Assembly: GCF_019649055.1 (NCBI RefSeq)
Contig: NW_026570298.1
Span: forward strand, 310,001 to 374,000
Source of the DNA: Paramacrobiotus metropolitanus
Taxonomy: Eukaryota > Tardigrada > Eutardigrada > Parachela > Macrobiotidae
DNA: 64,000 bases
Direction: 5' to 3'
Notes under the pieces: model-generated
Seen by the model: only the letters and a program-made list of their open reading frames with translations
The model's database searches: none
Told to the model about the DNA's origin: nothing
Program-made: the position numbers and the translations under genes
Shown: positions 22,270 to 55,742 of the stretch, one piece after another
How the letters are laid out: every line of letters starts with the position of its first letter
Position numbering within the stretch: the stretch's first letter is position 1

Positions 22270-22414
22270 TGTTGATTTTATTGTTAAATTTCTGAACCGC
22301 CCACAAACTGACCGATTTAAACTGCTTTGAATCCTGTACTATACATGGCTCAAAGCTACACAAATTGTCATCAAGACATACGCAAAAATTCAAGAAAACT
22401 AACGCTTAACAAGA

Positions 22415-25400
22415 TTAGCTGGCAATGGTGGAGGGCAGGTTCTCCTCGTCGTCGCTGATGAGTCCCTCCATCCCGACGCCCGCGGAGTTGTCGGTGACGT
22501 TGAGATCCATGGCGCTGACGTCGCTGTTGACGCTGCGCTCGTGCTCCGTCTTCCCGTCGACGCGCTGGAGGAACTCGGAGACGGCCTTGGCCATCCCGCT
22601 GATCCCCAGCGCCTTCCTGGCCCAGGCCCTGGCCTCCGCCGTGTTCCCGGCCTCCAGCTGCTGTCGGGCCAAGAACAAGTAGGCCTCGCCCAGCTCCGCC
22701 GCGAAGACACTGCGATTAACGTCCTCCTTGCCTTTGACGACCACCTCCTCGCAGGCGGCGATGTAGCGCTGGAACGCGATGGCCGCCTTCGCAGCATCGC
22801 TCTTAATCAACACCCGACCCAGCTTCCCCATGGCCCCGTCCTCCTTGTCGCCGTTCTGGTACGACTGCGAAACAGAAGCACCATATCAGTGATCTGCGTT
22901 TCGTATGGCTTCCGATGACATCATGACGGCAGGTATCTTATGTTTACACTAAATGTTAAAGTAGACTGTTCATAATCATCATACAATAAAAAATCCATGC
23001 TATTTGCAAATGAAACCGTGAAACCAATCAGAGTCACAGAAATTTACTCAATAAAAGAAGAATTTCAGCAACCTTGTCATACTGTTAGAGTAACCCTGCA
23101 CTTGACAGCTTTTTTCGTACGATATGAGCTGTACGGCACTGTAGTACTGGCAAACGTTCAGCTGGCTCAGAGCCGACTTAGCTGCACTCACTCATGTGCT
23201 GCCTGCCTAGTCACAGGCAGCATGTGTGAATGGTGAATGTGCTCGTACAACGTACGTCTCTTTGAGCTGTAAAATAGCTGTCAAGGGCAGGGTTACTCTA
23301 CAGTACTCCTTTCAAAAGAAGTTAGCAAGCTAATGATTGTATAAAAATAAATGCAGTAAAACGGAAAACTAAATATCTGTAAATGTAAATTATGTAATGA
23401 CTGGCGCAAAGGCGACGTAGAAATTGATGGAAAATAACCAGGCGTACCTGCCAGTAGGCGCGAGCGGCGTCTTCCGGCTGGTTGAGCTTGACGAAGACAT
23501 CCCCGAGCGCACACCAGGGCTTGGGGTCGTGGAAGGCGTTGTCGGCTGATCGCTGGAAGTACAAAATGGCCAGCGAGTACTTCTTGTCGCTCTCGTGCAC
23601 CTTGCCCAGTCCGAACCAGGCCCTGTAATCGCGCGGGTCCACCTGCACGGCCCGCTGCAGGCAGGCCACCGCCCGCGGCTGGTTCTTCAGCTCCAGATAC
23701 TCGTGCCCCAGGAAGAGCCAGGCCTGGGCTAAATCGGGGACGGCGCGGATCGCCAGCGTCAAGTGCTCGACGGCGCGGTCGTGCTGGTCGCGCAGACCCA
23801 GGTAGTTGCCCACCGCCACGTTCGTCTCCGGCGCCAACCGGTCAATCTCGTGCAGATCGCGCGCTAAACGCGCCAGTCGCGTCTGTCAACAGACACAATC
23901 TATACAAACGACTATTTCCAGCTATTGCTGACGAGAGAATCGGTATGAAACAATTACGTATAAAAATCTCCTACCGCTCACACAAGAAAATAAGATGTAA
24001 AAAAATTTTCTTGGGTAAAATGATTGACTGTGTTTGCATAGTTTTCAAGCCGAATAGTTTGCATAAGTTTTTAACTCAAACCCGCCTGAGGTATACTGCC
24101 ACTCTTCTACGATACCACATCAAACGTGCAAATCGGTGCGATGGCCGAAAATATATTAATTTTATTTTATAATGATTAACAGTTTAACAACTTTGCACGC
24201 GTTACGGCGGCTAAGCCGGCCAGCCGCTTTACCTTTATAAAATCTCCACAACTTAAGATGAAAAAAACACGCATCTTAGCCAAAAATTATCGGTTTCCTT
24301 TGCACGGGGAAATGATCACTTGTGCTGTTTTCAATTTGCACGGCTTATTTTACCCGTAAGCTGGAGAGAACACACTGCCATTCTTCTACGATGTCACCCG
24401 AACGCTCGAATACTGCATACCTGGATTCATATTACGTATATTACTGTGGTAAGCAGTTCAGCAACACAGATTTGCGGATGTGCGGATCTCTCTGAGCAGC
24501 AATTGTATTCTATCAAGTGAGAAAAATCTGCAACCGCATAGAGCAGAAATGAATAAAAATAAAAAATAATTATAAAGAACTACAAATAAAAAATAGGTAA
24601 ACGCAGAGCCAAAAATAACTATAATACCGCAATTAATATAAACTGTAATTAATCATAAATATTATATACTACAACAACGAGCGCCACTCAGTATAATACA
24701 ATCAAATGAAGAACTTGTCCCAGTTTAAATAACATGAGAAGGGACTGTACATAATATGCTCATAGCGTTACCTCGCATAATCTCCAAACTTAAACGCTGA
24801 AACAAAAATATATATATATACTTGCTTCAAGTTGCTTGTACATACTTTTACAGGTATGTACATATGTTGGCAATTGAAGCATCATCGAACTACTTTGTAC
24901 TTTACCACTCCACTACGATATCCTTCAAAAAAAAACCAACCGGAAACGCAAGAAATAATTAAAAAAAATCCCGACTCACGACGCAGTTGTATTTTGACGA
25001 TCCCTTTTATCTTCAACCGGATCCCATTGAAGAATTTCATCTTTTTGTAAAAATCGTTTTGTAAAAATCGTTTTGTAAAGAATCGTTTTGTAAAAAAGTT
25101 TAGAGCTTTTTAATATAAGAAAATGAAAATTATAATTAATCAAGATAATACCAATTGATTAAGAAAGCCCACCCTACTTTCATTTTTGCGCTTCCATAAT
25201 GCTGTTTCAACTAATCACCCTGCTCTTTACTACGAAATCAACTGTATGTTACCGTGTTCCAGGTTTGCTGGTTGTATGAGTGGCAAAGTAAAAATAAATC
25301 TGTAAAGCTTTGATGTTCAACTATAGAAGCGCTCACTATTGGAAATCAGTCATTATGCGCTTTGATTACATTTGATTATTATTTTTAGAAAACCGTTTCC

Positions 25401-28400
25401 GTACCTAATCGTCGCGCACATACATGTAGTTGGAGTACATTACAATTTACAAAGTATTATTAACTACTGTTACTGCTATTACTTTATTGGAATATCTTTA
25501 AAATTTGATGTAACAGAATGGTTGCTGGTTTAAGACAAACTATACGGACTTCAAATACGTATACTTCGCAGTGCATTTCTTAAATAAAATTCTTAAATAA
25601 AAACGTGACTGGCTTAATGGGCTAATAAAACTCAATGAAATTTATTCAAGAATTAAACCGTTATTTAATAACGGTACTTGTCAGCGCGGACATTATTATA
25701 TTATTTTTATGTTTGTTTTTTTTATTTACGATTTAATATTATCAAGTATCATCACTGCCATTTCCTAGTCCGTTAATAACTTAATTCGTTCATTTCGCTT
25801 TTTTAGTGCTCTCCATCGTAATCTCACTGCGATTTACCACAGTATGAGAAAAATAAAACATAAAATCCCCGTGTAGTGTGACTTTGCGCACTGTTACGTC
25901 TGCACCGAGCTGCTTTCAAAACCACGTGACTTACAGCCACAACTCACTACACTACGAAAACACCTGCATGTCACCGTATTCCTCCTTATTCTCCAATAGT
26001 TGTATGATAAGCAAAGTGCAACGTACAGCTGCTCAATTTCCAGTGTTCACTTTAACTATGATCAAATTATTACAACTATAATTTTCATTAGTAGCCTTTT
26101 TAAAACAATTCTTTCCGTACCCTTTCGCCGCGCGCACCGACCACGAATTAATTCGTATTCATTTAAAATTAAGTCGAACGTACAAGTCGTGCCATATTAA
26201 ACCGCGCATACCAAATACTCTTACCATATTTATTTTATGCTGTTAGATAATTCGTAACATAATACGATTTGGTTTAATAATTGTTTTTTAATAATCTTAA
26301 AAGCATACTCGTAGTATAAACTAAAATTATATTATTCAAAAAATAGCACAAAATAACAAAAATTAAAAAAACATAGTGCTATAGATAATAACAGTCTTAA
26401 ATTTTAAAAACAGTGCGCACCTTATCGCCGTGGACGTAGAAGGACGTTGGAGTATATTATTAACTGTTATTAAATAACAAATAAAATGAAATAAATAAAA
26501 TGAAATTTTCATTTTAAAACACTAACTTTAAGATTAGATTTGATATAATTCTTATTTATTCACGGGTAGGTATTAAATAAACGCACCTTGTCGCCGCGGA
26601 CGTTTGAGTACGTTATTAACGATTGTTATTGCTATTACTATATTATTTATCTTTAAAATTAAATTTAGAGATACCGTAATTCTTAATTATTCAAGAATTA
26701 AATGAACGCACCTTATCGCCGCGGACGTCGGAGTACATTATTATTAATAATTGTTATTATTAAAAACGTCAACTTTGAAAGCAGATTCGATAAAATTCTT
26801 ATTCAGGAATTAAACAAACATACCTTGTCGCCACGAACGTATAGTACGTTGGAGTAGAAGTCCATGTCGTCCAGCCGGGCCGGATACAAATGCCGGAGCT
26901 TGTCCATGAGTTTGACGGTGTCGAGGGTGTCCTTGCGGTTGTAGGCGACGCGGGCCAGTTGGGCCAGGACGGGGGGCGTGTTGGCCAGCAAGGAGCGGCG
27001 CAGGTACTTGCAGACGCCCAGGGCCTCCTCGGTCATGTTCAGCAAGTAGTAGCAACGCCCCAGGAACAGGTCCCGCATCCAGTGGGGTCTCAACCGCGGC
27101 AGGATTAATTCCAGATCGCGCCGCGTCAAAATGCAGTCGGCCAGTTCGAACCAGAAGCACCACAGGCGCGGCTCATGAGAGATGGCCTCCATCAACTGCT
27201 CACAGGCCAAGGAATGCGAGCCCAACTGCCGCAGGATCACCGCGTATAAATACCGCATCAACGGGTCCAGTCCGCGCTGCACCAGCTCTTCTTTGATCTC
27301 ACCACGGAGATTCTGCGAAAATCGATTTCTATTGCTAATTATATTGCTAATATTTTCACGTGATTTTAAATAAACGATCGGACTAAATCACCCCGAAAAA
27401 GCACACGGTGGATTTTTCATGATTTGCAATTGTTTATTCACAATTTGCTAATTGCGTAAATACGTTAACTACTAATTAATTTCATAATTCACAATCTGCT
27501 TACATAAAAACTGCCAAATGATGCCTACGGCTTTCCCCAGAAAAATTAATCTGTTATTCGTTTCTCATCTTCCGCACGTTTCTTCAGAGTTGCTATACAA
27601 AATAACACCCGTGCGAGGAAAGCCATTTTACTACGAAATTCCACTAAAGTATGCCGATTAATGACCATAATATGGTTACTGGTTTAACGAAATAAAAAAA
27701 TTAGGAAAATAACAACGTAATAAAAAACGAAATACAACAGTATGAATGACTGACGGAAAATTTATCGCCAGAACAAAAAAGCAGCCACCAGGAAATAAAG
27801 TACTCTGTACATCGAACTACTCAAGTACATCGATTTGGAAGAAAACCATGCAAACGCCAACCAGAAATATCGAAAAAAATTAAAAACAAATTTGCATTAG
27901 TACGTAAAGTACAAGCACGAGAGCTGAAAAATCCAAAAAAAATGTCAAATATTTGGAAAAACAAACAACCAACGCTAAGAAAATTAACAGTTGAAAATTA
28001 TCACAGCAAATATAAAATCATGCTGACGCATTTAGAGGATAATCGGTAAATGTAGGATATTTTCAACTATTAAAGATGAATAAATTTTTTAAAAAACGCC
28101 AAAATTCCATTTCGTTACAATTAATACATAATTCAATTTCAGTTAAAGGCTTTTCTTCAAACCCGAGAGGGGCAACTAATAAGCCATCCCACTACGAAAC
28201 TCTCCGTCTAATTATATTAGTACACAATCACAAAAAGGCAACCGACCTGCAAATACAGCACATCGGTCTCGGCGACGGATTCAAATTCGAGGGGATGCGG
28301 GGCATTCTGGAGCCACTGCGCCTGGCCGTGGAGGTACTTGTTGAAGAAGTAGAAGAAGCGGAGCACGGGGAAGTGGCGGAACTCGCTCCTGCGCATCCGG

Positions 28401-28768
28401 GCGTATCCCATCGCTTCCCCGTACTGGAAGCGGCGCATGGCGTTGAGGATGGCGGGGTAGGCGGAGTGCTTGGCGCAGAACTTGGCCTCCCCCTGCTCGC
28501 CCTCCACGGGGCTCTTGATCCCCGCCAGCACCCCGGGGCGCAGCTTGATCTTGTGGAGGGGCCGCAGCATCTCCGCCGCCCACTTCTGCGACTGCAGCAG
28601 GCACAGGCGGGAGGAGCGCCGCATGGAGTGCAACAGGTCCGTCTTGATGTCGGCGTAGGAGGACTGCCGCAGGATTAAAGGCAGCGGGATCTCCTCCACG
28701 GAGGGGTCCCCGGGGGAGGGCAGACTCAGGCTCAGGGAGGAGGCCGAAAGGGACTTCTTCTTGCTCAT
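22415..28768 (-). CDS. CDC23: APC/C subunit CDC23 (APC8), left copy
   Basis: Four exons (28247-28768, 26824-27312, 23448-23882, 22415-22864), 631 residues, all in frame with consensus splice sites. CDC23 is a TPR scaffold subunit of the anaphase-promoting complex, the ubiquitin ligase for cyclin B and securin. Family marks: the LYVRGDK stretch before the TPR superhelix, then HEIDRLAPETNVAVGNYLGL, GHEYLELKNQPRAV, DYRAWFGLGKVHE and LGDVFVKLNQPEDA, aligning with animal CDC23 in order; vertebrate CDC23 is about 600 residues. The Ser/Leu-rich N-terminus and acidic C-terminus (ISDDEENLPSTIAS) look lineage-specific. The ATG at 28768 is chosen because upstream frame offers only GTG. An almost identical inverted copy lies at 42664-47805. 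Intron 2 is 2.9 kb and contains repeated exon-2 ends. Confidence 0.95.
23080..23305. mobile_element. TA-flanked MITE in CDC23 intron 3, left arm
   Basis: About 226 bases with near-perfect inverted ends of about 30 bases (GAGTAACCCTGC.CTTGACAG and its reverse complement), TA at each outer edge, and an internal hairpin around GCTGCCTGCCTAGTCACAGG. The short length, long TIRs and TA target duplication suit a Tc1/mariner-type MITE. The same insertion is at 46914-47138, so it predates the inverted duplication. Confidence 0.75.
26405..26850 (-). repeat. Tandem copies of the CDC23 exon 2/intron 2 junction
   Basis: Starting from the real exon end (26824) and going into intron 2, the junction sequence (reads TACGTCCGCGGCGATAAG then GTGCG on the gene strand) recurs at about 26703, 26584 and 26412, each followed by similar AT-rich sequence, with spacing of roughly 120, 120 and 170 bases. 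More degenerate traces are visible near 26120 and 25409. The right CDC23 copy has only the true junction (44324). Confidence 0.65.
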
Positions 28769-28898
28769 CTTGGAGTCGGAGGAGCGATCAGAAGGGAAAA
28801 CACCGCGTGCGACAGATAAAAAAATGGGTTGCACAGTTAACGTTCCAGGGGAAGATCAGGAGGTCTCCATGTTATGACTGCTGTCAGACGAAAATCAG

Positions 28899-30671
28899 AG
28901 CTGCAGAACCTTCCACTTTCCAGTACCCTTGCTGATTGTGTACACAACGTGATTGACGTGACTGGAATCGCTCCGAGAAAAAAGAGCCGTTCTCAACACT
29001 ATCAACATGCAGCAAAGCGAATAAATCCAAAATTTACTACCGAAAAGTACGAAGTTTCAAAGTCAGAAAACTGAAAAAGTACTGTACCTTGTACACAAAC
29101 AACAGATTCGCAAGGAACAGAAAGTGAGATTGCTTTGGTGTAAAGCTAAGTGCAGCCGGCATCCGGGGGGCGGTCGCCAATAGCGCAGACGCCAGCCGCT
29201 CCGCGTCGGCGGTGGCGCTAGCTTACCGGGCGTTTTAATCCGCTCACCGGAAGTGCGGCGTGACGTCACAACCGGAAACCGCTGCCGCAGAACACGGAGT
29301 GCACGGATTAGTCGCTTCATCCATCCGACTGATATTGATTCCGGGACAGGTATGCGACCGTACTTTTTTTCGGCCAGGAATATCAGTGGTTCCTAAAGGA
29401 CTGCATCGGTTATAAACCAGATACTGTACTTGCAAATCGTTATGCTTCGGGATATACATTTTATATGTATTGCGAATGTCTATGTAACGTTATTTTGGAT
29501 TAGAGAAAATGGACACGAGTTTGCAACAAATGTCCGTGAAGCTGATATGTTTCGGGTGTTTCTTGGCACCTAGTTTTGTACGCAAGATTTATTACAGTAG
29601 TTGTTAATTAACGTACGTGTGTTAATGTACGTTGCACACGTACACTTAACAATTAACATTTCTGCATGGGGTACTCGTACTAACTGTTAGTTGTGGCTGG
29701 TGGCTTGGTATATAAGTAGCATCCGTTGGACAATTCAGCAATCACAAATTTGTGGCTCTCATATCGGCAGTTATTCGATCGGGATGAGGTATCTTTCATG
29801 GTCCTCGTATATTTACAGTATTGTATATTTAATGTATATTTTACAAAAAAAGGCCGATAAATTCGGAAGTGCAGGTTAAATTTTCTGTCAGTTATTAATT
29901 AGTAGACGTAGACAGGTAGTGTATAGTGGCAATCGTTCACAGAGAACTTAAATATGTACTTAGTTGATGTGTAAGTACATACCTTTACATGACTGCTTCT
30001 ACCTACATTAGATAACCCGTGAATACGGCATTCTCTGCATCCTTCCACATTAGAAAACTTGATAAATGTTTTTAATCTCATATATAGATGCTTGTGTAGA
30101 AACAAGCAATTAATCGTTTAAGCAATTTTTGAGTGGTATTTGCTGCCAAATGCATGTAGCGTACGTGTATTGTACATGGTAAGGAAATTGGCGTATAACC
30201 CGTAAATTTACATTTGTCGTTGCGGAAATTACGGGACAAGCTTCTACCTCCGGCGTCCGGTACACAAATTCATATTGTGAAAGTATCCGGATCTTGCGAA
30301 AATCGTCGAACCATAATTATGCAATGTCCAGTATATGAAATAAATACTTAACATTTTATTAGTTAATATTATTATTGCGGTTAAAAAATATTATGACATC
30401 ATTAAAAGATACGCTTATAATAACGACGTTCAATAAGCACAACATCACGGCATCTCACCTGCTTAACATTAACACCAGGGCAACAAGGAAACTGCGAACA
30501 AATCGACGTACATCGGTACAAACGTTAAGTATTGACACATCCACCAGAAAAAAAATATAATTATGATTATCACATAATCCCGATATTATTCACCATCACG
30601 TACTGAATGTTGACACTGTAGTCTACTGCACCTGCACACCCTGACCCTCCCCCCTATGCTCGTTGTGGAGC
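28899..30671. promoter_or_regulatory. Upstream region between left CDC23 and the MARCH-like gene, with CRE and ETS motifs
   Basis: The divergent genes start at 28768 (minus) and 30672 (plus). A GC-rich patch at about 29155-29285 contains an ETS-type ACCGGAAGTG (29246-29255) and, six bases on, a palindromic CRE TGACGTCA (29261-29268). Such pairs are typical of housekeeping promoters. The patch is outside the duplicated arm, so it can serve the left CDC23 but not the right one. No coding region is supported in the remainder. Confidence 0.5.
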
Positions 30672-33407
30672 ATGTCCAAGGGGAGTGCGGTGAATGTACC
30701 CGGTAATGTCTATCCCGATCTGCAGTATCTAACCTCCAGCTACGACATCACCGCCCTCGCGCACCAGCCTCTCATTCCCGTGCCCGTGGCCCCCCTGGCC
30801 CCCGCGCTGCCCCCGTCGGCTGCCTCGCAGCATAGTCTGCACGGTCCCGCGGCGCCCAAGACCCGCGAGAGCGTGGTGTTCAGTGGGACGAAGATCCCGG
30901 AAAAGGTCACGCCGTCCGGGAACCCCTCACTGTTGATAGCGCTGCAGGGCGGGAAGCACAAGGACGTCCTCGATGATGATCCGCTGCTGGATCTGCCGGA
31001 GGCCGCCGCGGGCGACTGCCATTCCACGCGGAATCGGCTGACGTCCAATACGTCGCGGATGTCGGCGGCGCAGTGCCGGATATGCTTCTCCGGTAATTCG
31101 GCGTTAATCTACAGATCTTAACTGCAGTTTCTTATAACTCAAGCATTTTGTTATTTTTTTATTCCCATAGCTCGAAATTAAAACAGATAAAGCAGCGCTG
31201 GACAAATTAAAGCAAACTTTATGTAAAGCGCATTTAACTTGACCTTTAATATATAATAATTTACGAAGCGTTAACTCGACAATTCGTGTGTTAAATAATC
31301 AATCCTACACATTTCTAATACTAAAGGATCGAGGCTGACCAATAAAGGAATACTGCGCTGTTAACAATTCTCGATTTTATTCACAGGTGCGTTATGAAAT
31401 GCCATTATTTTAATTTTGTTGTAAATAAGGCTATGTGACTTTTTTCTGTCTTTTTTTTGTTGCGATAATTCTGTATCCTGACACGTAAAATAATTATTAC
31501 GTGGACTGCATATAAAGGAATGTGCAGAACGTAGACGTGACCTTTGCGGCGCGCGGTATATTTCGTCAACCGTTTTTCTGTTATTCACAGCATCCGGGGA
31601 TAATCTGGCCACCGGCAACACCCCGATCCTGGTGCATCCGTGCGCCTGCGATGGCAGTATCCGTTTCTGTCATCCCGAGTGTCTCCTGCAGTGGGTGCGG
31701 CAGAGCGGTTCCTTCGTGTGTGAACTGTGCAAGACGCGCTACCGTATCAAACGGAGCGGCCTCAAGCGTTGTACACAGGTGAATTATAGAAACCAGATTA
31801 CAATTCCTACCAGTTAATCACACCAAATATTAATATAGAAAAATCAGTGACGAACATGGCAATATGGAAAAAAAATATTACTATTGAAAGACTCCAAATT
31901 TTTATATGTACGGTGTAAATAATGTATATTTGGCTCGTAAAGTTATTCAAATTAAACGGCACTTCAAGACAAGTTCAAGTATTTAGAAATGATAGAGCCG
32001 TCACACTACGATTGGCTACTATTCGCAGTAGACATGCTATCACAAGCATAATTTTTTTGCACATGCAAAAAAATACGATAAAATACAATAACAGGCATTT
32101 TATAGTTTTATTGCCAAAAATTAATGTATCACATATAACGCGGAACATAAAGCAACGCTAAACTGCGACGGGCCTTATTATTAATTTATTACTTAACAAC
32201 TGCATCATCAGATAAATAAAAGATTAACAAAATGTGATAAGTCATAAGCGCATAATATGTGCTTATGGCGTATTTAAATTATATTGTATCAACGTCTAAT
32301 AAACAAGTATATTGTATGTACAGCAAGTGCTGATTCCATGTGAATATTGCACCGTTGATCGCACTCTGGACACTTTCACAATATGGGACTGGCGTACCGG
32401 ACCCTACAGACACGGTATTCTTTGCGCTGTTCTACATTAAAAAACTTGATAATTTTTTATTATTCGCATGCAGAAACTTGTATAAAAACACTGCTTATCA
32501 TGTAACCAATTTTTAAAAGTTTTTGTCATGTGGAACAACACAGAGGATACCGTGTCTCTGGTGTCCGGTACGCGAATCCACATTAAAACAATGTCCGGAA
32601 TGTTAACAACATCGTTAAGGGAAGTGGCCTGGTACATATAGTACCAAATTCTTGTACACGGGCGAAAACTTCCCTTTCGCGCACTCCCAAGCACTTCTTT
32701 GCTTTGTTTTATGACATTCTATAGCCAGATGATTTGTACACACATTCGTAAAAAAATCTTTTGTGCGCGCAACATCCGGTTCGGGAGTTATAGCTGTTAG
32801 ACAATTCCAAAAAGTATAAAGGCATTCCGGTGTATCAGAAATAACCTCGCTTAATTACGTGCTGCATGTCATATTGTAGTGGCGTATGCCGGCGACGGAC
32901 TCCATCGACTGGATCCACATGGTCATCTTCTTCTTCTCCGTGGCCTTCATCGTCGGCTCCATCGTCTGGATGACGTGGCTGGGATTGGGCCAGCGCCTCG
33001 TCCACCCGGCCGCCGAAGCCGTCATGGTCAACTACCGCGCCCACGAAGCGGCCGCTCCCCCGGACGCCGGTGTCGCCTCCCCCACGGTCTCGGCGCTGGG
33101 CGACTTCATGGTGCCGGCCTTCATCCTGTACAGTATCATCGACGTCCTCTTCCTCTTCATCGCCGGCATGGAGCTGGTCTTCACCATCACGCCACTGCTG
33201 CGCAAATGGTACCGGATGAACCAGAAACTGATTATCGAGAATCATGATGTGCATGTCACGCACTCGTTGCCGCGCTATGTTAACGCCAATATGATTGCGG
33301 CGTCGGCGAACGGGGATGGGAATCATGTCCTGGGTGTCCAGGCGTCTATACCGTGTGTTAATGAAGAACGCGAGCGCATGGTACAAGAACATAACAACAT
33401 GCTGTGA
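30672..33407 (+). CDS. MARCH-family membrane-bound RING-CH E3 ubiquitin ligase
   Basis: Three exons (30672-31092, 31591-31778, 32880-33407) give 378 residues. The RING-CH (C4HC3) finger spans the exon 1/2 junction: CRIC, then CAC, seven residues, H, PEC, 12 residues and CELC, exactly the C-x-C-x7-H-x2-C spacing of MARCH ligases. Exon 3 begins WRMP after a TTGTAG acceptor and supplies two hydrophobic helices (MVIFFFSVAFIVGSIVWMTW and PAFILYSIIDVLFLFIAGM), as in MARCH proteins, which ubiquitinate membrane cargo for endocytosis. The Pro/Ala-rich N-terminal 130 residues are not conserved that I can tell. ATG 30672 is the first in the frame. Intron 2 holds half a fold-back MITE. Which MARCH subtype it is cannot be told by eye. 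Confidence 0.88.
32614..32820. mobile_element. Half copy of the fold-back MITE in MARCH intron 2
   Basis: Same order of landmarks as the left arm of 39399-40084: GGTACAT..TAGTACCAAATT, TCGCGCACTCCCAAGCACTT, TAGCCA.A.GATT and GCGCGCAACATCCGGTTCGG. Only one arm is present. Confidence 0.7.
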
Positions 33408-34753: not shown

Positions 34754-35289
34754 TATATGATTCCCCGGAATTTTTTCAATAATTGTCACGGTAAATAATT
34801 TTTTACAACAGCAAAATCCTTCTCACTGAGTACCACAAAGCGAAGAATATATTTTACTGGGAAAATTACGATATTTAATAAAACAAATACACATACCAGG
34901 ATTTATTAAGATTCAGGAAGAAAGTAATACAAATCACTGCGCTGGTAAATTAGTACAGTTTTCATGCTGTCCCGACCACGTTACTAAGCAAACACTCAGA
35001 CGAAAATATTTGGAAACATATTTGTGAATTAAATAAATACAGTAAAACTCGGAAAAAATATCTAAAATTAAGCAAATAATTTTTATTTAATTGAAAGTAG
35101 GTAGGTAAAACAGTAAAATAAACGCTGAATTATAACCAGCCAAAGCAGCGATCACATTAAGACAGGCAGAAGACAAACCGAAGCATCACAATGCCAAGTA
35201 AGGATTATTATTTTAATTTATTGCTAATAAATATGGCGATTTAAAAATACTGATGCCAAGCGTCGGGATGAAGTGGCTGATTCAGCGCA

Positions 35290-38200
35290 TTACAATTCCA
35301 CCGTCGCGATGCCGGCCAGCTCCCGCGCGTAGCCACTCAGAGCCGGACGCACTTCCATATTCAAAAACTCGGTCACCTACGCCGAAGCATAACCGCGTGC
35401 TGAGATTTTGTACATGAACAGTATTGTATAAAATCGGAACATTTTCCAACCTGAAAATCGTGGATCAAACCGGCATCAACGTTCCGATACATCAAAAATT
35501 ACATTAATGAACTGTTTTTCTACACTTAAACACCAGACAAAAATTGGATGAAAATAAATTTCGCATTAATGGAACACAGTTCCCCCTTCTGCACTAAAGA
35601 GCTTCCTGTGAGCCGAAAAATAACCAAATAAAAAAGTGAAATTTTACAAGTAAACCTACTAGTAAATGGTGCGTTTCGTTTGTCATTTGTTACTGTATAC
35701 AATTACTGCAGGGTTGATATTCTGGGTCACAGCAAGCCACTACACTAAACTCCCCTATTTTTATACAACACATCTCAAAATATAAAATAACTCTATTTAT
35801 TGTCCGCAGTAGACTGCGGGAGATTCTGCTATGAAAATTTTTCTTCCGATTATTCCTCAAAATTTTTCATTATCGACAAAAGTAACCCGAGTGGAATAAT
35901 AATTTTTTTCGATAAAGGAATAACCCGGTAAGGCGCAAATGTCATCAAGTAAATCCCCTGATAACGTCAACGTCGTAACCGACGTAACGTAGTACAGTGG
36001 CCAGTTGGGTGAACAAAAACAAACGACTGGTTGTTTTCCCACAGTAAAGGAAACGAAAGAACACCAACTCACATTTTTACCCGAGAGAAGAATACTAAGT
36101 TTGCTGACTACTGTTCTACCATTAATTCAATTTTAAAAACATAAAAATAAACAGAAAATTTTACAATGCCTTTGGCTGTCTACGTCGTACCTGTTTATCA
36201 GCGCGTCCGGTGAAGAGCGTGGGATTCATCAGTTCGTCGAGCTCGTTGTGGATCTTGGCGAAATAAGCATCGCTGCGGATGCGCTGCAGCAAATCATTGT
36301 CCTTTCCCTCCTGCTTGACAACATTCCCGGCTAGTTGCGACAGCTCGCGCAGTTTTTCATGGCACTCCTGTCGATTCCCGCCGGCCTTCACGACGGCCAT
36401 GATGATGTTCTCCGTGGCCATGAAGGGCAGTTCCGCGCCGATACGCCGACTGATCACGTTCGGATAGACCACCAAGCCTTCGCAGATGTTCTGCAGCGTG
36501 ATCAACAGAGCGTCCGCGATCAGGAACGCCTCCGGAATACAGATACGCCTGTGAAAAGGAAGGAAAAAATATTTTGCTCATTTATTCAATGTGATTAATA
36601 ATAAAATGTCAGCAATAAATGGCACCAAAACTATCCAAATCAAGTCATTAAAGATCAACACAACCATTTTATTTACTGATCCCAATTAAAATTAATTAAA
36701 TCAGAATTTTCTTCCTATTATTATACAGATAAGAAACCATTTTAATGTTGGTTGTTTACTGAACGTAAATTCGTAACTGCTATAACTTATTACAGATAGA
36801 ACCAGTAGAACTAGAAAAACACAGAACGTTCTTTAAATTAACGGGTATGGTACAATTTAACTGGTGTTAAAAATACCGAAAAAGAGACTGTTTTTTCAGC
36901 AGCGCCAAGAAAGTTTTTCTATTCGTTTTAAACGGAATAAAATCGATTTTTCCGACTGAATAGCGTAATGTTAATGGAAAAGTAGTTAAATCGCACGGAT
37001 ACAGTGTGACCTTTGTCAGGATGACAAGCGCGTGCTTACCGGTTAGCACTGTCGTCCAGCGTCCGCTCCATCCACTGCACGGAGTGCGTCTGCAGCGCAT
37101 CATTAACCAGCGTCATGAGATGGCGCGCCAGACTGCAGCAGCGCTCGCTGCGCATCGGATTGCGCTTGTAGGGCATCGCGCTCGACCCGATCTGCTCCGC
37201 CTCGAAGGGCTCCTCCACCTCCTTGAAACTGGCCAGCAGCCGGATGTCCGTGCAGATCTACATACGATCGCAGTAGATTTTTGTTACTAACAGCGCAATT
37301 TACAGTCTACACTGGCTAAATCCCTATACCGACTATCGTAGAGTAATGGCTTATTAAATCCTCGCGTCATGGTGAGATCGTGCGCCAAAATTTAAATTAT
37401 TACAGCGCGAATACAGAAAATATCAATTTTTTACATACTGTTCGTAAGTGAAACCGTGAAACGATCTACATTCTATCGCTTCATAATATCACAGAAACAA
37501 GTACTGCATTTTAAAATAAAACATATCCGCAAAGGCAATGAAAGACAGTTTTTTTACACAATATTAACTGCTTTACAATAATAATGCAGGAATACAGACG
37601 CTACACTACAAAATCCTTCAGAAATATTTTAACAGCAAAAATACATAAATATATGTGCACCGACAGTCAATAACAATCTGTCCGCACTGCTTTGAAGACC
37701 GCTTATCTTAGTTATCTATACATTGTTACCGCTACATAATAATTAATACAATAATTAATAAAAATTAATAATAATTATTGGTATTATTAATAATTAATAA
37801 TAATAATTATTATTAAAAATTTTATAATAATTATTTATAATAATAATAATAATTTTATAATAATTATTATTATTATAAAATCATTATTAACAATTATTAC
37901 AAATTATACTGAAGAGAAAAATAGGAAATTTATCGAACTAGTTTAACATTTCTGTGTCCACTGCGAAATTATGGTACATATACAAAAATCAAAGTTGACC
38001 TCCAACGTGCATGCATGATTTGATCATTACTCTACCTTATGAACGGACGCTCCGAGTCCAGCCAACACCGATAAAACCTCCAAATCCTGTTTACGCGTGT
38101 ATGTCTGGCCGCAAATGATGAAGCACCTGAAAAAAAATGGCCAAAAAAATTACGGCACGCCGGTCGAACTTCACAATAAAAAATAAATAGCAATCAATAA

Positions 38201-41200
38201 TAAAAATAAATATGAATAAAAAATGCAAAATTCGGTGCGAACTCCGCAATAAAAGATAAATAACAAAAAAAAATAAATATATCAATGAAAATGGAATTAA
38301 ATGTCAAATTCGGTGTGTGCGCTGACTTCTTGAAGCCGGCATAATCGCAGACGAGGACATCCAGCATGTGGGCCTTGTCGGCGTTGCCGAACAACTGCAC
38401 GAAGCTGGCCTGCGTCCCGGTGGTGCCCTTGACGCCGCGGAAGCGCAGATCGGTCTTGATGCGCTCGAAATTGTGCAGATCCATCACCAGATCCCCCGTC
38501 CACAGCGCCGCCCGCTTTCCGACCGTTGTCAACTGCGCTGGTCTACAAATGCAAAAATAAAAACTTGCGATTACCGTAAAACAACCGAACACGGACGAAA
38601 TTCTCCTTCATCTTCAAGAAGTATTACATCAAATTCGGACGATACGATTCTGTAACATACCCTTGCACTACGTTCAGTGTCAAGAGTCATGACAGGAACG
38701 ATCCTTCAACTGCTCAGAAAAACAGTATTTTATCGGATTTTATCAATTATTACAGATTTCTACATGCATTAGAATCATTTTTATTTATTTCATAAGTTCA
38801 CAAGAATATTACAAATGAATACAATTGTTTTTATTTTTTTATTGATGTATTTTGCTACGCTTCCATACAATGACAACGAGGCTAAGAAACCTACAAAGCT
38901 TCCAATCGCTTCCTAGTAAAATTAAAAATACACTGGCTTTTATTACGTAATTATTAATTCATCAAAGACATGACATAAGGAAATCCTTTCATGACGGGAG
39001 ATATTACGTCAAACACAGCAAATTGCCCTTACACTACGTTCACACACAAGACATTACAAACAACTGTGTATAATGTTCACAAGGAGTAACTGATTTAAAT
39101 TTTATTAATTTGATTTGTTACGCGTTCATATATTTAAGATTAAAAATAAGTACACTATTTTCACTTTCATAAGTTCATTCATTTCAAAGGCGAAATTTTA
39201 AAACTATGCTTTCTTTTAATATTTAACTGGATTTACGCTACCGTGAATCCTCAGTGAGGTTACAAATAAATAAATTATTATGAATTTCATTCACCGAAAA
39301 ATAAAAATAATTTCGCTTTATTCAGAATTTAGTGATTTAATTTCAATCGCTTCCACACATGCTTGATGCGTTTAAAAATCCCCATATTAAGTTTTTAATT
39401 AAGGGATTTGGCCCGGTACATAGTACCAAATTGGGGAACATACACGGGAACTTTCTCTCTCGCGCACTCCTAAACACTTTTTTGCATTGCTTTATGATAT
39501 TTTGTAGCCAAAGGATTCGTATATATAGGCGAGAAAACCGTTTGTGCGCGCAACATCCGGTTCGGGAGTTATTAATGAAATAAAATTGCAAAAGCTTAAA
39601 CGCGCGGAGGTGTACCAAAAGTCTCGTTATGAACCCATGCTCTTCAAATTTTGCACGAAAACACACATTACTATGAAGATCGTTTTGGTACCGAATCAGC
39701 TTTCTACCATTTTTTTCAAATTTTAAAATGAATTTCAAAACTTTTAAAAATTAATTTAAAATTTGAAAAAAATGGTAGAAAGGTGGTTCGGTACCAAAAC
39801 GCTCTTCATAGTAATGTGCCTTTTTGTGCAAAATTTGAAGAGCATCGGTTCATAATGAGACTTTTGGTACACCTCCGCGCGTTTAAACTTTTGGAATTTT
39901 ATTTCACTAATAACTTCCGAACCGGATGTTGCGCGCAGGAACGGTTTTTTCGCCTGTGCATAAGAATCCTTTGGCTACATATTTCCATAAAGCCATGCAA
40001 AAGAAGTGTTTGGGAGTGCGCGACAGCGAAAGTTGCAGTGGATGTATACAAATTTGGTGCTATGTACCGGGCCAAATCCCTTAAACGCTTTTGAGATTTA
40101 CCACGCAAAACATGTACTTAACAGTTTTTATTAAAAACCGTAAAAATTGCAATAATTTTCCTGCCATCTTTTAATAGTTTAGAAATAGATACAAAATTAG
40201 CAACTTACTGCAGATGTGTATATCCCAGCGTCGGCAACGCCTTGTAATCATCCGCAAATTTGCTCAGACGATCAATGCACCGTGCCAGCTAAATACAAGA
40301 AATAATTCACCAAATGCACGCAATTTCCGCCAACAAATTGCACAATCTCAAACTGTTAATGGAAAAGTAATTTACCTTCGGCAAGAGTATTTGCAGTCCA
40401 TCGCGTATACAAATAAGATCCTGGCAAAATAAAAACACCGGTAAAATCAGTGCACACTGACTGCGGAAATGGCGGAGGAAGTCTCGATTGTTATGGTGGA
40501 AATCGTACGGTATTGTCCGTCACGTAGCAGGAAGTGGCGCCCAGATGGATGATGCCCTCGGCCTTCTTGCACTCTTTCCCGAACGTCCGCACATGCGCCA
40601 TCACATCGTGCCGCACCCGCTTCTCCTCCGCCAACGCGAAATCCCAGTCAATACGCTCCACATTCGCCTCCATTTCCGCAATCTGGTCTTCTTGAATATT
40701 CAAACCCAGTTTCTATAAAAATCCCAAATAAAATTGAGAAAAAGTCATTTTAATAAATAAAATATCCACCACATACAACCAAAATAATATAAGAAATTTA
40801 TTAAACGAGAAAATTTATTAAAAATGGGGGGAAAATTCCAAATAATTATCCGTTTAACAAGAGCAGTACCACTCTCAACCGAATGGCCAGACTGCCACTG
40901 TTCTACGCTTTCCGGTAATCTTAACGTGAGTAAGTAATGGGGAAATGTGCATTGTACACTACACATCAACCCACTTGACGTATCCAGAAACTTAAACTCG
41001 CAGGAAAAATAAAAATCGGCAGTTTCTTCATAGAAAAACTAACAAGAAAATATAAAATCAGCTACATTCGTTAATGTTTTCTGATGACAAATCTTAAACA
41101 AATACTGTTTCACTGTATTACTGCAACTGCAAGTCTGGAACTGTGTACCAATATACTGATTAACGTAGTGCAGTGGCGATGACTAACGGCGTGCTCAAAC

Positions 41201-41873
41201 GATTCGTTTGTTGGCATGTAATCTGATTTAATGTTTTCTGCTAAACGATCAGTTGTACAAGAACTCGCAGCCTTTTTTAAATGTTTCAATATTATATTTA
41301 TAAATTACATAAAACGCAAGCTCACTTCGCTCGCATGCTTGATAATGGCTTTTTACAATAAAAAATTAGGCTTTTCATTGATCGGAATTTTCCATACTTC
41401 CATTGATCGGAATTACAGTATCACCCAATAAACACAATCGAATCATTGGCGAATGAGAAATAAAATAATTACTAAGAAAATGCCGAAAATAAAATCGGTA
41501 AAATAAAAACACAATAACAATTCAAAGAATAAAATTAATAATAATTATTAATTTTTTTATGGTTATTCAATTAATACAGTTGTGAATAATTATTAGTTTT
41601 TTTATTATTAAATAATAAAATATCAGCGAGTCAGCGACTGATACGACTGACTGTACGTGTCAGTGACAGTATCCCGGGTAAACGGGAAAACAGCACACCA
41701 GCAGAGACTGTTATGCGCACCTGTTGCGATTTGGCCAGCCAGACCCAGAGTTTCCTCCAGGTGATGATGCGTTTGCGCTCGCTGAAGTTGTAGCACATCT
41801 CCTCGCTGGCGTAGCGCTGCGTCAACGGCGTCTGGTAGCGGGACTTCTCGCGGTCCTTCTCGTTCGTCGCCAT
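35290..41873 (-). CDS. ADSL: Adenylosuccinate lyase
   Basis: Nine exons: 41721-41873, 40509-40712, 40376-40420, 40209-40288, 38327-38542, 38036-38126, 37040-37257, 36191-36548, 35290-35376; 483 residues, the length of animal ADSL (human 484). The enzyme makes two eliminations in purine synthesis: SAICAR to AICAR plus fumarate, and adenylosuccinate to AMP plus fumarate. Motifs in order: YRTPL-like start with [62 protein letters not shown], and the fumarase-superfamily signature loop [15 protein letters not shown] in exon 7. The last exon ([13 protein letters not shown]) restores the usual C-terminus; reading on past exon 8 instead gives a short alternative tail ending near 36161. It lies in the spacer of the CDC23 inverted duplication. 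Confidence 0.96.
37736..37905. repeat. TAA/ATT microsatellite
   Basis: About 170 bases of nearly pure AATAATAATTATT-type repeats in ADSL intron 6. Confidence 0.9.
39399..40084. mobile_element. Complete fold-back MITE in ADSL intron 4
   Basis: About 686 bases forming one long imperfect palindrome centred near 39741. Outer ends TTAAGGGATTTGGCCCGGTA and its reverse complement; arms of about 330 bases share GCGCGCAACATCCGGTTCGG, TCGCGCACTCC and TCATAATGAGACTTTTGGTA. No protein is encoded. A TTAA at the border would suit a piggyBac-like target, but this cannot be proved here. Related copies lie at 8396-9335 and 32614-32820. Confidence 0.85.
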
Positions 41874-42663
41874 GATGGAAATTGGACGGGGAATCTTCAC
41901 AGGGAACAAAGAATAGGCGACTGCTATGCGTGACAGAACGTGAATGCAGGCCCGCAGCACTCCGTAGTTTGCCAGTCAAAATGTGCGCAACTAGATGCCA
42001 AGATGCTGTTGCAAGCAGCCCCTTTTATAGCTTATCCCGCTGTAAAATTATTTGCACTGGATATCAAAGAAGCGGAAGAACAGAGCTACCAAATAAACAA
42101 CGCAATAAAAGTTGGAAAAACTCAACGGCATTGAAGCGACAAGACGAGAGAGAGAAATTTGACAGGAAGTTTTGCAGTCATCACTGCACACACAACTTCC
42201 GGTAAGCGGTAAGTAATCGCCCAATCTGAGCGGTCAATGTGCGCGCTGTTGCCCACCGCCCCTTGACGCAGATTACAGTTGTCATTACACATAGCAGCCA
42301 CTTGCCAGTGCTGCTGCCATTTAGCAAGCGAAGCTGGTGTTTGTGACTTTGACTGGTAGGTGATTTGGAAATAAAACCGAATCGCACGCATGATGCCTAG
42401 AAGCCGCTGCCTGGATTAACAGTTTGTGTTTCTCGATTTTCCGTTTTTGACTAGGTTTCTAGTAATTTTTCCAGCTTCTTCACTTTTCCGAATGTTTAGT
42501 CTTTGAACACAGCTCTCATTTGTGGAGCGAGTTCTGATTTTCGTCTGACAGCAGTCATAACATGGAGACCTCCTGATCTTCCCCTGGAACGTTAACTGTG
42601 CAACCCATTTTTTTATCTGTCGCACGCGGTGTTTTCCCTTCTGATCGCTCCTCCGACTCCAAG
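41874..42663. promoter_or_regulatory. Divergent promoter region between ADSL and right CDC23
   Basis: 790 bases between the two start codons. It contains two ETS-type sites, ACAGGAAGT (42162-42170) and ACTTCCGGT (42195-42203). Duplicated CDC23 sequence starts only at 42534, so the right CDC23 relies on sequence that belonged to the ADSL side. Confidence 0.45.
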
Positions 42664-45600
42664 ATGAGCAAGAAGAAGTCCCTTTCGGCCTCCTCCCTGA
42701 GCCTGAGTCTGCCCTCCCCCGGGGACCCCTCCGTGGAGGAGATCCCGCTGCCTTTAATCCTGCGGCAGTCCTCCTACGCCGACATCAAGACGGACCTGTT
42801 GCACTCCATGCGGCGCTCCTCCCGCCTGTGCCTGCTGCAGTCGCAGAAGTGGGCGGCGGAGATGCTGCGGCCCCTCCACAAGATCAAGCTGCGCCCCGGG
42901 GTGCTGGCGGGGATCAAGAGCCCCGTGGAGGGCGAGCAGGGGGAGGCCAAGTTCTGCGCCAAGCACTCCGCCTACCCCGCCATCCTCAACGCCATGCGCC
43001 GCTTCCAGTACGGGGAAGCGATGGGATACGCCCGGATGCGCAGGAGCGAGTTCCGCCACTTCCCCGTGCTCCGCTTCTTCTACTTCTTCAACAAGTACCT
43101 CCACGGCCAGGCGCAGTGTCTCCAGAATGCCCCGCATCCACTGGAATTTGAATCCGTCGCCGAGACCGATGTGCTCTATTTGCAGGTATGGATGCCGCTC
43201 TTTTCTATTGATTATGTATTGAGATATTTATGAAAATGTTCTCTGTTCGACTTAGTGGTGTTTCGTAGTAAGATGGCTTCTATTAGTGTGCTCTACCTTT
43301 GGCCAGAACAGTTTGGGAAATAAAAGCAACCGACCACAAATTTGGTTTATACTTTTTGTTCGTTATTTTGTTTTTGACAAAAAAAACTTACTGCTTAAAC
43401 TGCGTAAAGGTTTTTCAGTGTACCTTGATACAGTTTCTATCTTCGTAACTGATAACAATTTTAGTTGATGTCGGCTCGCCGCGACTATATTTTTTCGTTT
43501 TTTTGTTATTGTTACCTGTCATTTTACTTTTAATTCGGAGTTGTTATTTCCTGAAGTTGCTGCATTTTTTAGTTCTCTTCGTTTTACATTTTATCGTGTA
43601 AAATAATTTGTGTCCAATACCAGAAATTTGCTGTAATCTTTTTCATCTGTAATCTGTAATTTGCTGTAATCTTTGCTGTAATCGTTAATTGTACGATGTT
43701 AATATGTAATTGTAATTTTGATCTTGTTGAATTTCTTTCTGGTTATTTACCGGGCAGCATTTGATATTACGGTTATTGATTATTTGTTCTTCGAGTATTA
43801 TCAATATCTCGATTTAATATTTTTATTTTCTGCAGAATCTCCGTGGTGAGATCAAAGAGGAGCTGGTGCAGCAGGGACTGGACCCGTTGATGCGCTATTT
43901 GTACGCGGTGATCCTGCGGCAGTTGGGCTCGCATTCGTTGGCCTGCGAGCAGTTGATCGAAGCCATCTCTCATGAGCCGCGCCTGTGGTGTTTCTGGTTC
44001 GAGTTGGCCGACTGCATTTTAACCCGTCGTGATCTGGAGTTGATCCTGCCGCGGTTGAGACCCCACTGGATGCGGGACGTGTTCCTGGGGCGTTGCTACT
44101 ACTTGCTGAACATGACCGAGGAGGCCTTGGGCGTCTGCAAGTACCTGCGCCGCTCCTTGCTGGCCAACACGCCCCCCGTCCTGGCCCAACTGGCCCGCGT
44201 CGCCTACAACCGCAAGGACACCCTCGACACCGTCAAACTCATGGACAAGCTCAGGCATTTGTATCCGGCCCGGCTGGACGACATGGACTTCTACTCCAAC
44301 GTCCTCTACGTCCGCGGCGATAAGGTGCGCACCGAAAAAGTAAAACTCTTATTATCTATAGCAGTATGTTTTTAATTTTTCTATAACTATTAGAGAATAA
44401 GGAGGAATACTGTGACATGCAGGTGTTTTCGTAGTGTAGTGAGTTGTGGCCGTAAATCACGTGGTTTGGAAGCAGCTCGGTGCAGAAGTAACAGTGCGCA
44501 AAGAATATCACAGAGGGATTTTTCTGTTTTATTTTTCTCATACGATTAGGTACGGAAAAGGTTTTCTAAAAATAATAATCAAATGTAATCAAAGCGCATA
44601 ATGACTGATATCCCATAGTGAGCGCTTCTATAGTGAACATCAAAACTTTACAGATTTATTTTTACTTTGCCTCTCATACAACCGGGTACCAGTACACCTG
44701 GAACACTGTAATCATACAGTTGATTTCGTAGTGTAGTGAGCTCACTGAGTTGTAACCGGAAATGTTATTATGAGCGTTCTACGTGTATTTTAAGCAGGTT
44801 CATACCATAGCCGCCACGTGCACAGTCATTTGCTTTAGATGTTTTTTTATCTGTTTTCTTGTATTTAATACTGCGTGAATTGTAAAGAGCAGTGTGATTA
44901 GTTGAAACAGCATTATGGGAAGCGCAAAAAGGAAAGTAGGGTGGGCTTGCTTAATTAATTGGTATTATTTTGATTAATTATAATTTTTTCATTCTCTTAT
45001 ACAGATATTAAAAAGTTCTAAACTTTTTTACAAAACGATTCTTGGTGGGGCAAAAGATGAAATTCTTCAATGGGATCCGGTTGAAGAGAAAAGGGATCGT
45101 CAAAATATAACTGCGTCGTGAGGCGGGATTTTTTTAAGTATATCTTGCGTTTCCGGTTGGTTTTTTTTTGAAGGACATCGTAGTGGAGTGGTAAAGTACA
45201 AAGATGTTCGATGATGCTTCAAATGCCGACATATGTACATACCTGTAAAAGTATGTACAAGCAAGTATATAATATTTATGATTAATTACAGTTTATATTA
45301 ATTGCGGTATTATAGTTATTTTTGGCTCTGCGTTTACCTATTTTTTATTTGTAGTTCTTTATAATTATTTTTTATTTTTATACATTTCTGCTCTATGCGG
45401 TTGCAGATTTTTCTCACTTGATAGAATACAATTGCTGCTCAGAGAGATCCGCACATCCGCAAATCTGTGTTGCTGAACTGCTTACCACAGTAATATACGT
45501 AATATGAATCCAGGTATGCAGTATTCGAGCGTTCGGGTGACATCGTAGAAGAATGGCAGTGTGTTCTCTCCAGCTTACGGGTAAAATAAGCCGTGCAAAT

Positions 45601-47805
45601 TGAAAACAGCACAAGTGATCATTTCCCCGTGCAAAGGAAACCGATAATTTTTGGCTAAGATGCGTGTTTTTTACATCTTAAGTTGTGTTCTAAGATTGTG
45701 GAGATTTTTATAAAGGTAAAGCGGCTGGCCGGCTTAGCCGTCGTAACGCGTGCGACGTGTGTTAAATTGTTAATCATTGTAAAATTAATATATCTTCGGC
45801 CATGTTACCGATTCGATCGTACGTTTGATGTGGCATCGTAGAAGAGTGGCAATGTGTCGGCGGACTCGGCTTATGTGCAAACTATTCGGCTTTCAATTTA
45901 CACCTATCAGTTTAATTTATCATTTTTATTTACACCTATCAATTTAATTTATTAATTGAATTTAATTTATCAATTTACACCTATCAGTTTACACCTATCA
46001 ATTTAATTTATCATTTTTATTTACACCTATCAATTTAATTTATTAATTTAATTTAATTTATCAATTTACACCTATCAATTTAATTTATCATTTTTATTTA
46101 CACCTATCAATTTAATTTATTAATTTAATTTAATTTATCAATTTACACCTATCAATTTACACCTATCAATTTTTTCAGTTTTCAATTTCAGTCGATCAAT
46201 TTACACCAAATAATTTTTGTGCATCTTATTTTCTTGTGTGAGCGGTTGGCGATTTTTATACGTAATTTTTTCATACCGATTCTCTTGTCAGCAATAGCTG
46301 GAAATAGTCGTTTGTATAGATTGTGTCTGTTGACAGACGCGACTGGCGCGTTTAGCGCGCGATCTGCACGAGATTGACCGGTTGGCGCCGGAGACGAACG
46401 TGGCGGTGGGCAACTACCTGGGTCTGCGCGACCAGCACGACCGCGCCGTCGAGCACTTGACGCTGGCGATCCGCGCCGTCCCCGATTTAGCCCAGGCCTG
46501 GCTCTTCCTGGGGCACGAGTATCTGGAGCTGAAGAACCAGCCGCGGGCGGTGGCCTGCCTGCAGCGGGCCGTGCAGGTGGACCCGCGCGATTACAGGGCC
46601 TGGTTCGGACTGGGCAAGGTGCACGAGAGCGACAAGAAGTACTCGCTGGCCATTTTGTACTTCCAGCGATCAGCCGACAACGCCTTCCACGACCCCAAGC
46701 CCTGGTGTGCGCTCGGGGATGTCTTCGTCAAGCTCAACCAGCCGGAAGACGCCGCTCGCGCCTACTGGCAGGTACGCCTGGTTACTTTCCATCAATTTCT
46801 ACGTCGCCTTTGCGCCAGTCATTACATAATTTACATTTACAGATATTTAGTTTTCCGTTTTACTGCATTTATTTTTATACAATCATTAGCTTGCTAACTT
46901 CTTTTGAAAGGAGTACTGTAGAGTAACCCTGCCCTTGACAGCTATTTTTACAGCTCAAAGAGACGTACGTTGTACGAGCACATTCACCATTCACACATGC
47001 TGCCTGTGACTAGGCAGGCAGCACATGAGTGAGTGCAGCTAAGTCGGCTCTGAGCCAGCTGAACGTTTGCCAGTACTACAGTGCCGTACAGCTCATATCG
47101 TACGAAAAAGCTGTCAAGTGCAGGGTTACTCTACAGTACATGACAAGGTTGCTGAAATTCTTCTTTTATTGAGTAAATTTCTGTGACTCTGATTGGTTTC
47201 ACGGTTTCATTTGCAAATAGCATGGATTTTTTATTGTATGATGATTATGAACAGTCTACTTTAACATTTAGTGTAAACATAAGATACCTGCCGTCATGAT
47301 GTCATCGGAAGCCATACGAAACGCAGATCACTGATATGGTGCTTCTGTTTCGCAGTCGTACCAGAACGGCGACAAGGAGGACGGGGCCATGGGGAAGCTG
47401 GGTCGGGTGTTGATTAAGAGCGATGCTGCGAAGGCGGCCATCGCGTTCCAGCGCTACATCGCCGCCTGCGAGGAGGTGGTCGTCAAAGGCAAGGAGGACG
47501 TTAATCGCAGTGTCTTCGCGGCGGAGCTGGGCGAGGCCTACTTGTTCTTGGCCCGACAGCAGCTGGAGGCCGGGAACACGGCGGAGGCCAGGGCCTGGGC
47601 CAGGAAGGCGCTGGGGATCAGCGGGATGGCCAAGGCCGTCTCCGAGTTCCTCCTGCGCGTCGACGGGAAGACGGAGCACGAGCGCAGCGTCAACAGCGAC
47701 GCCAGCGCCATGGATCTCAACGTCACCGACAACTCCGCGGGCGTCGGGATGGAGGGACTCATCAGCGACGACGAGGAGAACCTCCCCTCCACCATTGCCA
47801 GCTAA
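42664..47805 (+). CDS. CDC23: APC/C subunit CDC23 (APC8), right copy
   Basis: Exons 42664-43185, 43836-44324, 46337-46771 and 47356-47805 have exactly the same lengths (522, 489, 435, 450) as those of the left copy and give another intact 631-residue CDC23. Reading both, I find six differences, left to right: W152C, R187Q, M215I, L256V, Q582L, V598A. None breaks a TPR motif obviously. Introns 1 (650 versus 934 bases) and 2 (2,012 versus 2,941) differ greatly, while intron 3 (584 versus 583) is nearly identical. Its 5' side faces the adenylosuccinate lyase gene, so it sits in a divergent promoter arrangement that the left copy lacks. Both copies look functional; one could be an assembly duplicate of a second allele (see findings). 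Confidence 0.93.
45895..46205. repeat. AT-rich tandem repeat in intron 2 of right CDC23
   Basis: Many tandem units built from TTTACACCTATCAATTTAAT with longer period substructure. The left intron lacks this array at the matching position. Confidence 0.85.
46914..47138. mobile_element. TA-flanked MITE in CDC23 intron 3, right arm
   Basis: Partner of 23080-23305: same position in intron 3, same TIRs (CTGTAGAGTAACCCTGC / GCAGGGTTACTCTACAG), flanked by TA. Confidence 0.75.
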
Positions 47806-47945
47806 TCTACTTGCTGTAATTTTTGTACTCGTACTTGTCATGATGGCACTTCGTTCAGCTTTTAAGCCATGTACAGCGTAAGACCAAAGCTGTTGCCATC
47901 GGTCAGTTTGTGTGCGGTTCGAAAATCTAAGAAACTGTTAACGAA

Positions 47946-55684: not shown

Positions 55685-55742
55685 GCGTCATCATGACAAC
55701 TGCAACAAATAAGAAAAACTACCGCTTAACACAGGTGAAGAT

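Follow-up and report, generated by a model that had tools for sequence, protein, structure and literature searches.

We analysed a 64,000-nucleotide stretch of the genome of the tardigrade Paramacrobiotus metropolitanus (the window; assembly GCF_019649055.1, contig NW_026570298.1, here C78:310001-374000, in a genome of 533 contigs and 169,799,020 bases), which carries two inverted arms, each with one complete CDC23 (APC8) gene. The inner edges of the left arm (L) and the right arm (R) lie 13,627 nt apart; a third CDC23 copy elsewhere in the genome is labelled C. Arms and exons are given below in window coordinates, with dS for the synonymous divergence.

22289..28902, minus strand: left arm L with CDC23-L, including about 130 bp of sequence 5' of the ATG and about 125 bp 3' of the stop codon
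28247..28768, minus strand: CDC23-L exon 1, 522 nt
26824..27312, minus strand: CDC23-L exon 2, 489 nt; dS to R 0.224
23448..23882, minus strand: CDC23-L exon 3, 435 nt; identical to R
22415..22864, minus strand: CDC23-L exon 4, 450 nt including the stop codon
42530..47925, plus strand: right arm R with CDC23-R
42664..43185, plus strand: CDC23-R exon 1, 522 nt
43836..44324, plus strand: CDC23-R exon 2, 489 nt
46337..46771, plus strand: CDC23-R exon 3, 435 nt
47356..47805, plus strand: CDC23-R exon 4, 450 nt including the stop codon

Both copies consist of four exons of equal lengths, three introns and 631 codons, and the encoded proteins differ at six residues (from L to R: W152C, R187Q, M215I, L256V, Q582L and V598A). 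They match the human CDC23 chains in the PDB (best E 4e-61, residues 40-528); the exon 2 frame lies above the cut-off of Pfam ANAPC8 (E 7.8e-12), the exon 1 frame slightly below it (23.4 vs 23.8 bits), and the exon 3 frame matches tetratricopeptide repeat (TPR) families of Pfam. Judged by this homology, by the N-terminal domain and by the TPR repeats, both genes are assigned to the CDC23/APC8 subunit of the anaphase-promoting complex/cyclosome (APC/C). As all three introns are kept in both copies, a retrocopy origin is rejected. An Rfam scan of the 64-kb window returned no match at gathering scores.

The first long identical run shared by the arms begins at 28899/42533 and forms a sharp inner edge; at the outer side, similarity stops near 22289/47925, and the flanks of L and R are unrelated to each other. 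With a single gene per arm and several segments that cannot be aligned, the structure lacks the long, collinear, near-identical arms of a large chromosomal palindrome. The gene models and the arm comparison bear out the original prediction, made from this DNA alone, of an inverted duplication with two intact CDC23 genes and a sharp inner edge, and its coordinates, residue number, identical exon lengths and six differences were all reproduced.

The duplication is not uniform: identity between the arms swings from 100% to unalignable over short distances. The stretches that define this mosaic, including a miniature inverted-repeat transposable element (MITE), are the following.

28314..28899, minus strand (pairs with 42533-43118): identical tract 1, 586 bp, the 5' region and most of exon 1
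27313..28246, minus strand: intron 1 of L, 934 bp; forced alignments reach 48% with R and 46% with the third copy, that is, unalignable
43186..43835, plus strand: intron 1 of R, 650 bp; matches the third copy on contig C288 at 92% (496 of 538 columns)
24262..24551, minus strand (pairs with 45383-45672): identical tract 2, 290 bp within intron 2
22415..23932, minus strand: near-identical stretch 3, comprising exon 3, intron 3 with the MITE and exon 4, with runs of 498, 348 and 514 bp
23086..23305, no strand assigned: MITE in intron 3 of L; its counterpart in R lies at about 46914-47134

The tracts end abruptly. Exon 1 is identical between L and R up to its last 70 bases, which hold four differences, and the adjoining intron 1 reaches just 48%; at the other end of the gene, the 100-column block 22536-22437 holds one mismatch and the following block (22436-22330), which starts immediately before the stop codon, holds 28. 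Exon 2 carries 26 differences across its 489 nt, the start of intron 2 matches patchily with insertions, and the arms are diverged again between tract 2 and stretch 3 (after 24262 and before 23932). As a separate observation, intron 2 of L (window 26440-26868) opens with a degenerate tandem array in which the end of exon 2 and its splice donor are repeated several times; the third copy on C288 aligns to part of this stretch, and R, which is without most of it, has perhaps lost it by deletion between the repeats.

Within the alignable blocks, 157 of the 4,041 columns are mismatched. The runs of 586, 514, 498 and 348 bp are longer than any run in the 5,000 column permutations, in which all sites are taken as exchangeable (maximum 321); tract 2 is the weakest, its 290 bp lying above the 99% quantile (237) and below the permutation maximum. 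From exon 1 to exon 4, dS between L and R is 0.025, 0.224, 0 and 0.010; 22.5 synonymous changes fall in exon 2 vs four in exons 1, 3 and 4 together; and the longest run of unchanged synonymous sites, 201.7, was reached in none of 20,000 random placements (maximum 173.3). Coding constraint cannot explain the identical tracts, because they extend through intron sequence and the MITE.

These patterns suggest that an old inverted duplication of one gene was later homogenised in patches by ectopic gene conversion between its arms, a reading that we regard as probable. Under it, CDC23 alone would have been duplicated in inverted orientation, as a unit with margins of about 130 bp on the ATG side and about 125 bp on the stop-codon side, at a time remote enough for exon 2 to have accumulated a dS of 0.22 and for the two versions of intron 1 to have lost all alignable similarity; purifying selection would then have acted on both copies; and, later, breaks in one arm would have been repaired with the other arm as template. 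Such repair would have overwritten exon 1 with the 5' region, part of intron 2, and the sequence from exon 3 through exon 4, leaving these stretches about 99.5-100% identical, including silent sites, introns and the MITE, while the remainder kept its older divergence. At least three separate converted stretches are needed, because diverged sequence separates them. We infer that conversion is the cause and that the duplication predates the tracts; repair from the neighbouring arm in cis is likewise suggested by analogy with the layout of the Drosophila Amy and Hsp70 genes, and ectopic conversion between linked inverted repeats 13.6 kb apart at their inner edges is plausible. The two genes show two of the features expected of an inverted pair in concerted evolution: they are linked, oppositely oriented and intact paralogs, and their silent sites are homogenised in tracts beyond constraint. 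Gene conversion had been listed in the original prediction as one consequence of such a structure, and the per-exon dS values and the identical-run tests support it.

The same figures weigh on the idea that the duplication was recent and involved no conversion at all, intron 1 having undergone fast local change or replacement and the differences in exon 2 having clustered by chance. Replacement of that intron alone is possible, given that intron 1 of L is unlike those of both R and C288; yet divergence also affects the 3' flank and parts of intron 2, exon 2 holds 22.5 synonymous changes vs four in the other three exons, and no random placement reached the observed silent run. This explanation is strongly disfavoured, and we find it very hard to credit.

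The MITE bears on the age of the duplication. It occurs in at least 33 further places in the genome, and intron 3 of the C470 part of the third copy is without it. Its shared position in L and R had been taken to show that the duplication followed the insertion. This dating fails: the MITE lies within near-identical stretch 3, which conversion could have moved, and, because conversion copies everything within its tract, the element is no clock for the duplication. Where conversion acts, the age of a duplication cannot be read from an insertion site that the paralogs have in common.

Exon 2 also informs on the maintenance of the two genes. Its differences comprise 22.5 synonymous and 3.5 nonsynonymous changes; four or fewer nonsynonymous changes among 26 have P 1.7e-6 at omega 0.5, the expectation with one copy free of selection, and 3.7e-4 at omega 0.3. 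Nonsynonymous differences are thus too few for one free copy, which indicates that, as far as exon 2 shows, both genes have been kept working, under purifying selection since their divergence.

A six-frame protein search of the genome for CDC23, in which all 22 candidates were scored, gave 19 matches. The exons of L and R account for eight of them, C288 and C470 for six, and a relic within the window for two; the other three, on C4, are weak (30-38% identity). The third copy lies on C288 from residue 96, with exons 3 and 4 on C470; we treat the two parts as one copy, possibly of a single locus. Its exon 2 is interrupted by a long terminal repeat (LTR) retrotransposon of about 9.2 kb (C288:1796-11060) with gag, protease, reverse transcriptase, RNase H and integrase domains and end repeats of 294 bp that are 96% identical. 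The third copy also carries stops and small frame breaks, some of which are possibly single-base assembly errors; the splice sites compared between it and R are kept. The relic stands beyond the right arm:

55365..55849, plus strand: decayed CDC23 exon-4 relic of two pieces, of which the second is inverted; distance to the right arm about 7.4 kb

In its exons, the third copy differs by 7-10% from both arms and is about equally far from L and R; in exon 2, its dS is 0.30-0.45 to both. Sites shared by two of the three copies (in the order L=R, L=C, R=C) number 13, 1 and 2 at the end of exon 1; 36, 11 and 11 in exon 2; 12, 22 and 5 at the 3' end of intron 2; 73, 0 and 3 in exons 3 and 4; 85, 4 and 0 in intron 3; and 21, 19 and 11 in the 3' flank. 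At the 3' end of intron 2, identity is 88% for L-C, 79% for L-R and 78% for R-C, and after the stop codon all three are diverged (L-R 69%, L-C 66%, R-C 57%). Intron 1 of the third copy, 92% identical to that of R, is unalignable to that of L. Because intron 1 of the third copy is nearest to R and its intron 2 end nearest to L, these alignments make it probable that exchange extended beyond L and R and involved the third copy.

This raises a serious rival, which also uses conversion and reverses the order of ages: the L/R duplication would be recent, and the diverged patches (intron 1, exon 2, parts of intron 2 and the 3' flank) would have been imported into one arm from older CDC23 copies, with C288 and C470 related to the donors. 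A third copy and a relic do exist, the 92% match of R intron 1 to C288 and the greater likeness of L (88%) than of R (78%) to the third copy at the end of intron 2 are what such imports would leave, and some exchange with the third copy is likely. Neither arm, however, is near the third copy in exon 2, where the shared sites are split evenly, 11 with L and 11 with R, and the region after the stop codon is diverged in all three copies. Import would need other donors, and the protein search gave none beyond the copies named above. We therefore regard it as unlikely, while taking it seriously.

Several points weigh against our preferred interpretation of old copies converted in patches. The evidence is the sequence of one assembly, which makes both the physical joins and the age order putative, and the permutation test presumes exchangeable sites. 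In exon 2 as well, L and R are nearer to each other than either is to the third copy (36 shared sites vs 11 and 11); because exon 2 favours L=R, the split of L and R, or an earlier conversion between them, would be younger than their split from the third copy. Intron 1 of R is 92% identical to that of the third copy despite a dS of 0.19-0.41 between R and C in the neighbouring exon pieces, and the 3' end of intron 2 is nearer between L and C (88%) than between L and R (79%); either the third copy exchanged sequence with an arm, or the kinship of the copies is more tangled than a two-gene story allows. Finally, three other duplicate pairs of the assembly, a non-random choice of more diverged pairs, are without such tracts: their longest identical runs are 97 bp in an ADSL pair (392 of 3,162 columns mismatched), 46 bp in a pair of DM-domain genes on C5 (468 of 2,298) and 33 bp between window 49-51.5 kb and 52-55 kb (269 of 1,621).

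Given runs of just 97, 46 and 33 bp in these three pairs, we reject a general homogenisation of duplicates in the assembly. A more specific artefact would be a head-to-head join of alleles or paralogous contigs, or a homogenisation of the arms during Canu correction, Pilon polishing or HaploMerger2 merging. The published assembly of P. metropolitanus (Paramacrobiotus sp. TYO) was made by Canu with heterozygosity-preserving options, followed by nanopolish, Pilon and then HaploMerger2 (PMC8277472, in part); if the present assembly is the published one, the Oxford Nanopore Technologies (ONT) read N50 of about 17 kb falls short of the 25.6-kb structure, and a one-base misassembly in a DMRT gene has been reported (both PMC11191345, in part). 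Polishing, however, would have had to strike exons 1, 3 and 4 and parts of introns, and yet spare both exon 2, which lies between identical tracts and retains its 26 differences, and the third copy, which at 7-10% distance in exons escaped homogenisation; and the stretches concerned take in introns. Alleles, in turn, would share flanks and introns and show uniform low divergence, whereas these arms share neither flanks nor intron 1, and the third CDC23 copy is distinct from both. A join of two alleles, which the original prediction had offered as an option, is on this comparison unlikely, and we reject it; near-identical duplicates need not be an allele join. Artefacts of all these kinds together appear improbable to us.

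If breaks repaired from one arm to the other did produce the mosaic, as we think probable, one may ask where they came from. It is conceivable that, in this desiccation-tolerant animal, breaks caused by desiccation drive the repair of one CDC23 gene from its inverted neighbour, and that conversion between local inverted pairs thereby maintains two working copies of an essential cell-division gene, in which case the mosaic of tracts would record past repair of this kind; we consider this proposal speculative and doubtful.

The sequence between the arms was described in the original prediction as a unique block carrying its genes once each. This holds within the window; across the genome it does not, as a relative of the ADSL gene lies on the same contig at C78:565060-569244, about 213 kb away and in opposite orientation. 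The relative is 78-97% identical in the larger pieces, with 97% over 173 bp at the 5' end and 78-89% in the others.

36186..41889, minus strand: ADSL region of the spacer, with a Pfam ADSL_C match for the last exon alone

The remaining exons in this region we take to belong to ADSL as well. A RING-variant domain supports the name MARCH for a second spacer gene, and the matches listed for the MARCH-side half of the spacer (28903-36180), with 40 of 1,547 candidates scored, were all short dispersed repeats. The spacer also holds a 686-bp foldback element (39399-40084) with 261-nt arms that are 89% complementary and 1 nt between them; it has many copies in the genome and is absent from the ADSL relative. 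Inversion of the spacer by way of the CDC23 arms is possible in principle. Beyond the right arm, a stretch is duplicated in tandem (window 49142-50969 and 52193-54416, in pieces that are 82-86% identical), and the one frame tried there gave no Pfam match.

Duplicated CDC23 genes are known elsewhere. The original prediction held that essential APC/C subunits are normally single copy; exceptions exist, as rice and grape have two CDC23 genes each, those of rice being located on chromosomes 2 and 6, within segmental duplications (PMC3095333, in part), in contrast to the local inverted pair described here. Our literature searches found no paper for Cdc23 with tardigrade, plant work only for Cdc23 together with gene duplication, paralogs and anaphase-promoting complex, and, for tardigrade with gene conversion, no title on conversion between tardigrade paralogs in the part of the matches judged by title. 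In P. metropolitanus, which is gonochoristic and not parthenogenetic, two of the five DMRT genes, PmDmrt3090 and PmDmrt3093 on scaffold 5, are extremely similar over residues 30-180 and have completely different introns, and nanopore reads span each of them (PMC11191345, in part). The CDC23 pair resembles them as linked duplicates with alike exons and different introns. A DM-domain search of the genome matched at five places, and those at 2.135 and 2.163 Mb of C5 we take for this pair; unlike the CDC23 genes, these two lie on the same strand, about 28 kb apart, with one exon stretch at 91% and the others at 72% identity, and with a longest identical run of 46 bp they show no sign of recent conversion.

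Inverted pairs homogenised by ectopic gene conversion are known from Drosophila, in Amy-p/Amy-d and Hsp70Aa/Hsp70Ab (reviewed in PMC3924832, in part). The CDC23 genes resemble these as two linked, palindromic, conserved genes under purifying selection, and differ from them in that the tracts span introns and a MITE, that exon 2 escaped, and that the gene encodes a core APC/C subunit. For the palindromes of Y chromosomes, Adineta vaga and Folsomia candida, conversion between arms has also been proposed (PMC7953838, in part); the CDC23 arms are likewise inverted repeats on one chromosome, but those palindromes are described in that source as reverse collinear blocks of genes, whereas the arms studied here hold one gene each and are largely unalignable in parts. 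The kind of structure is known; what is new, as far as our searches go, is its occurrence at this gene and in this animal, with a patchwork that can still be read. If real, the locus would provide a legible tardigrade case in which inverted paralogs for an APC/C subunit have undergone conversion, the unconverted exon 2 within them and the third copy serving as yardsticks.

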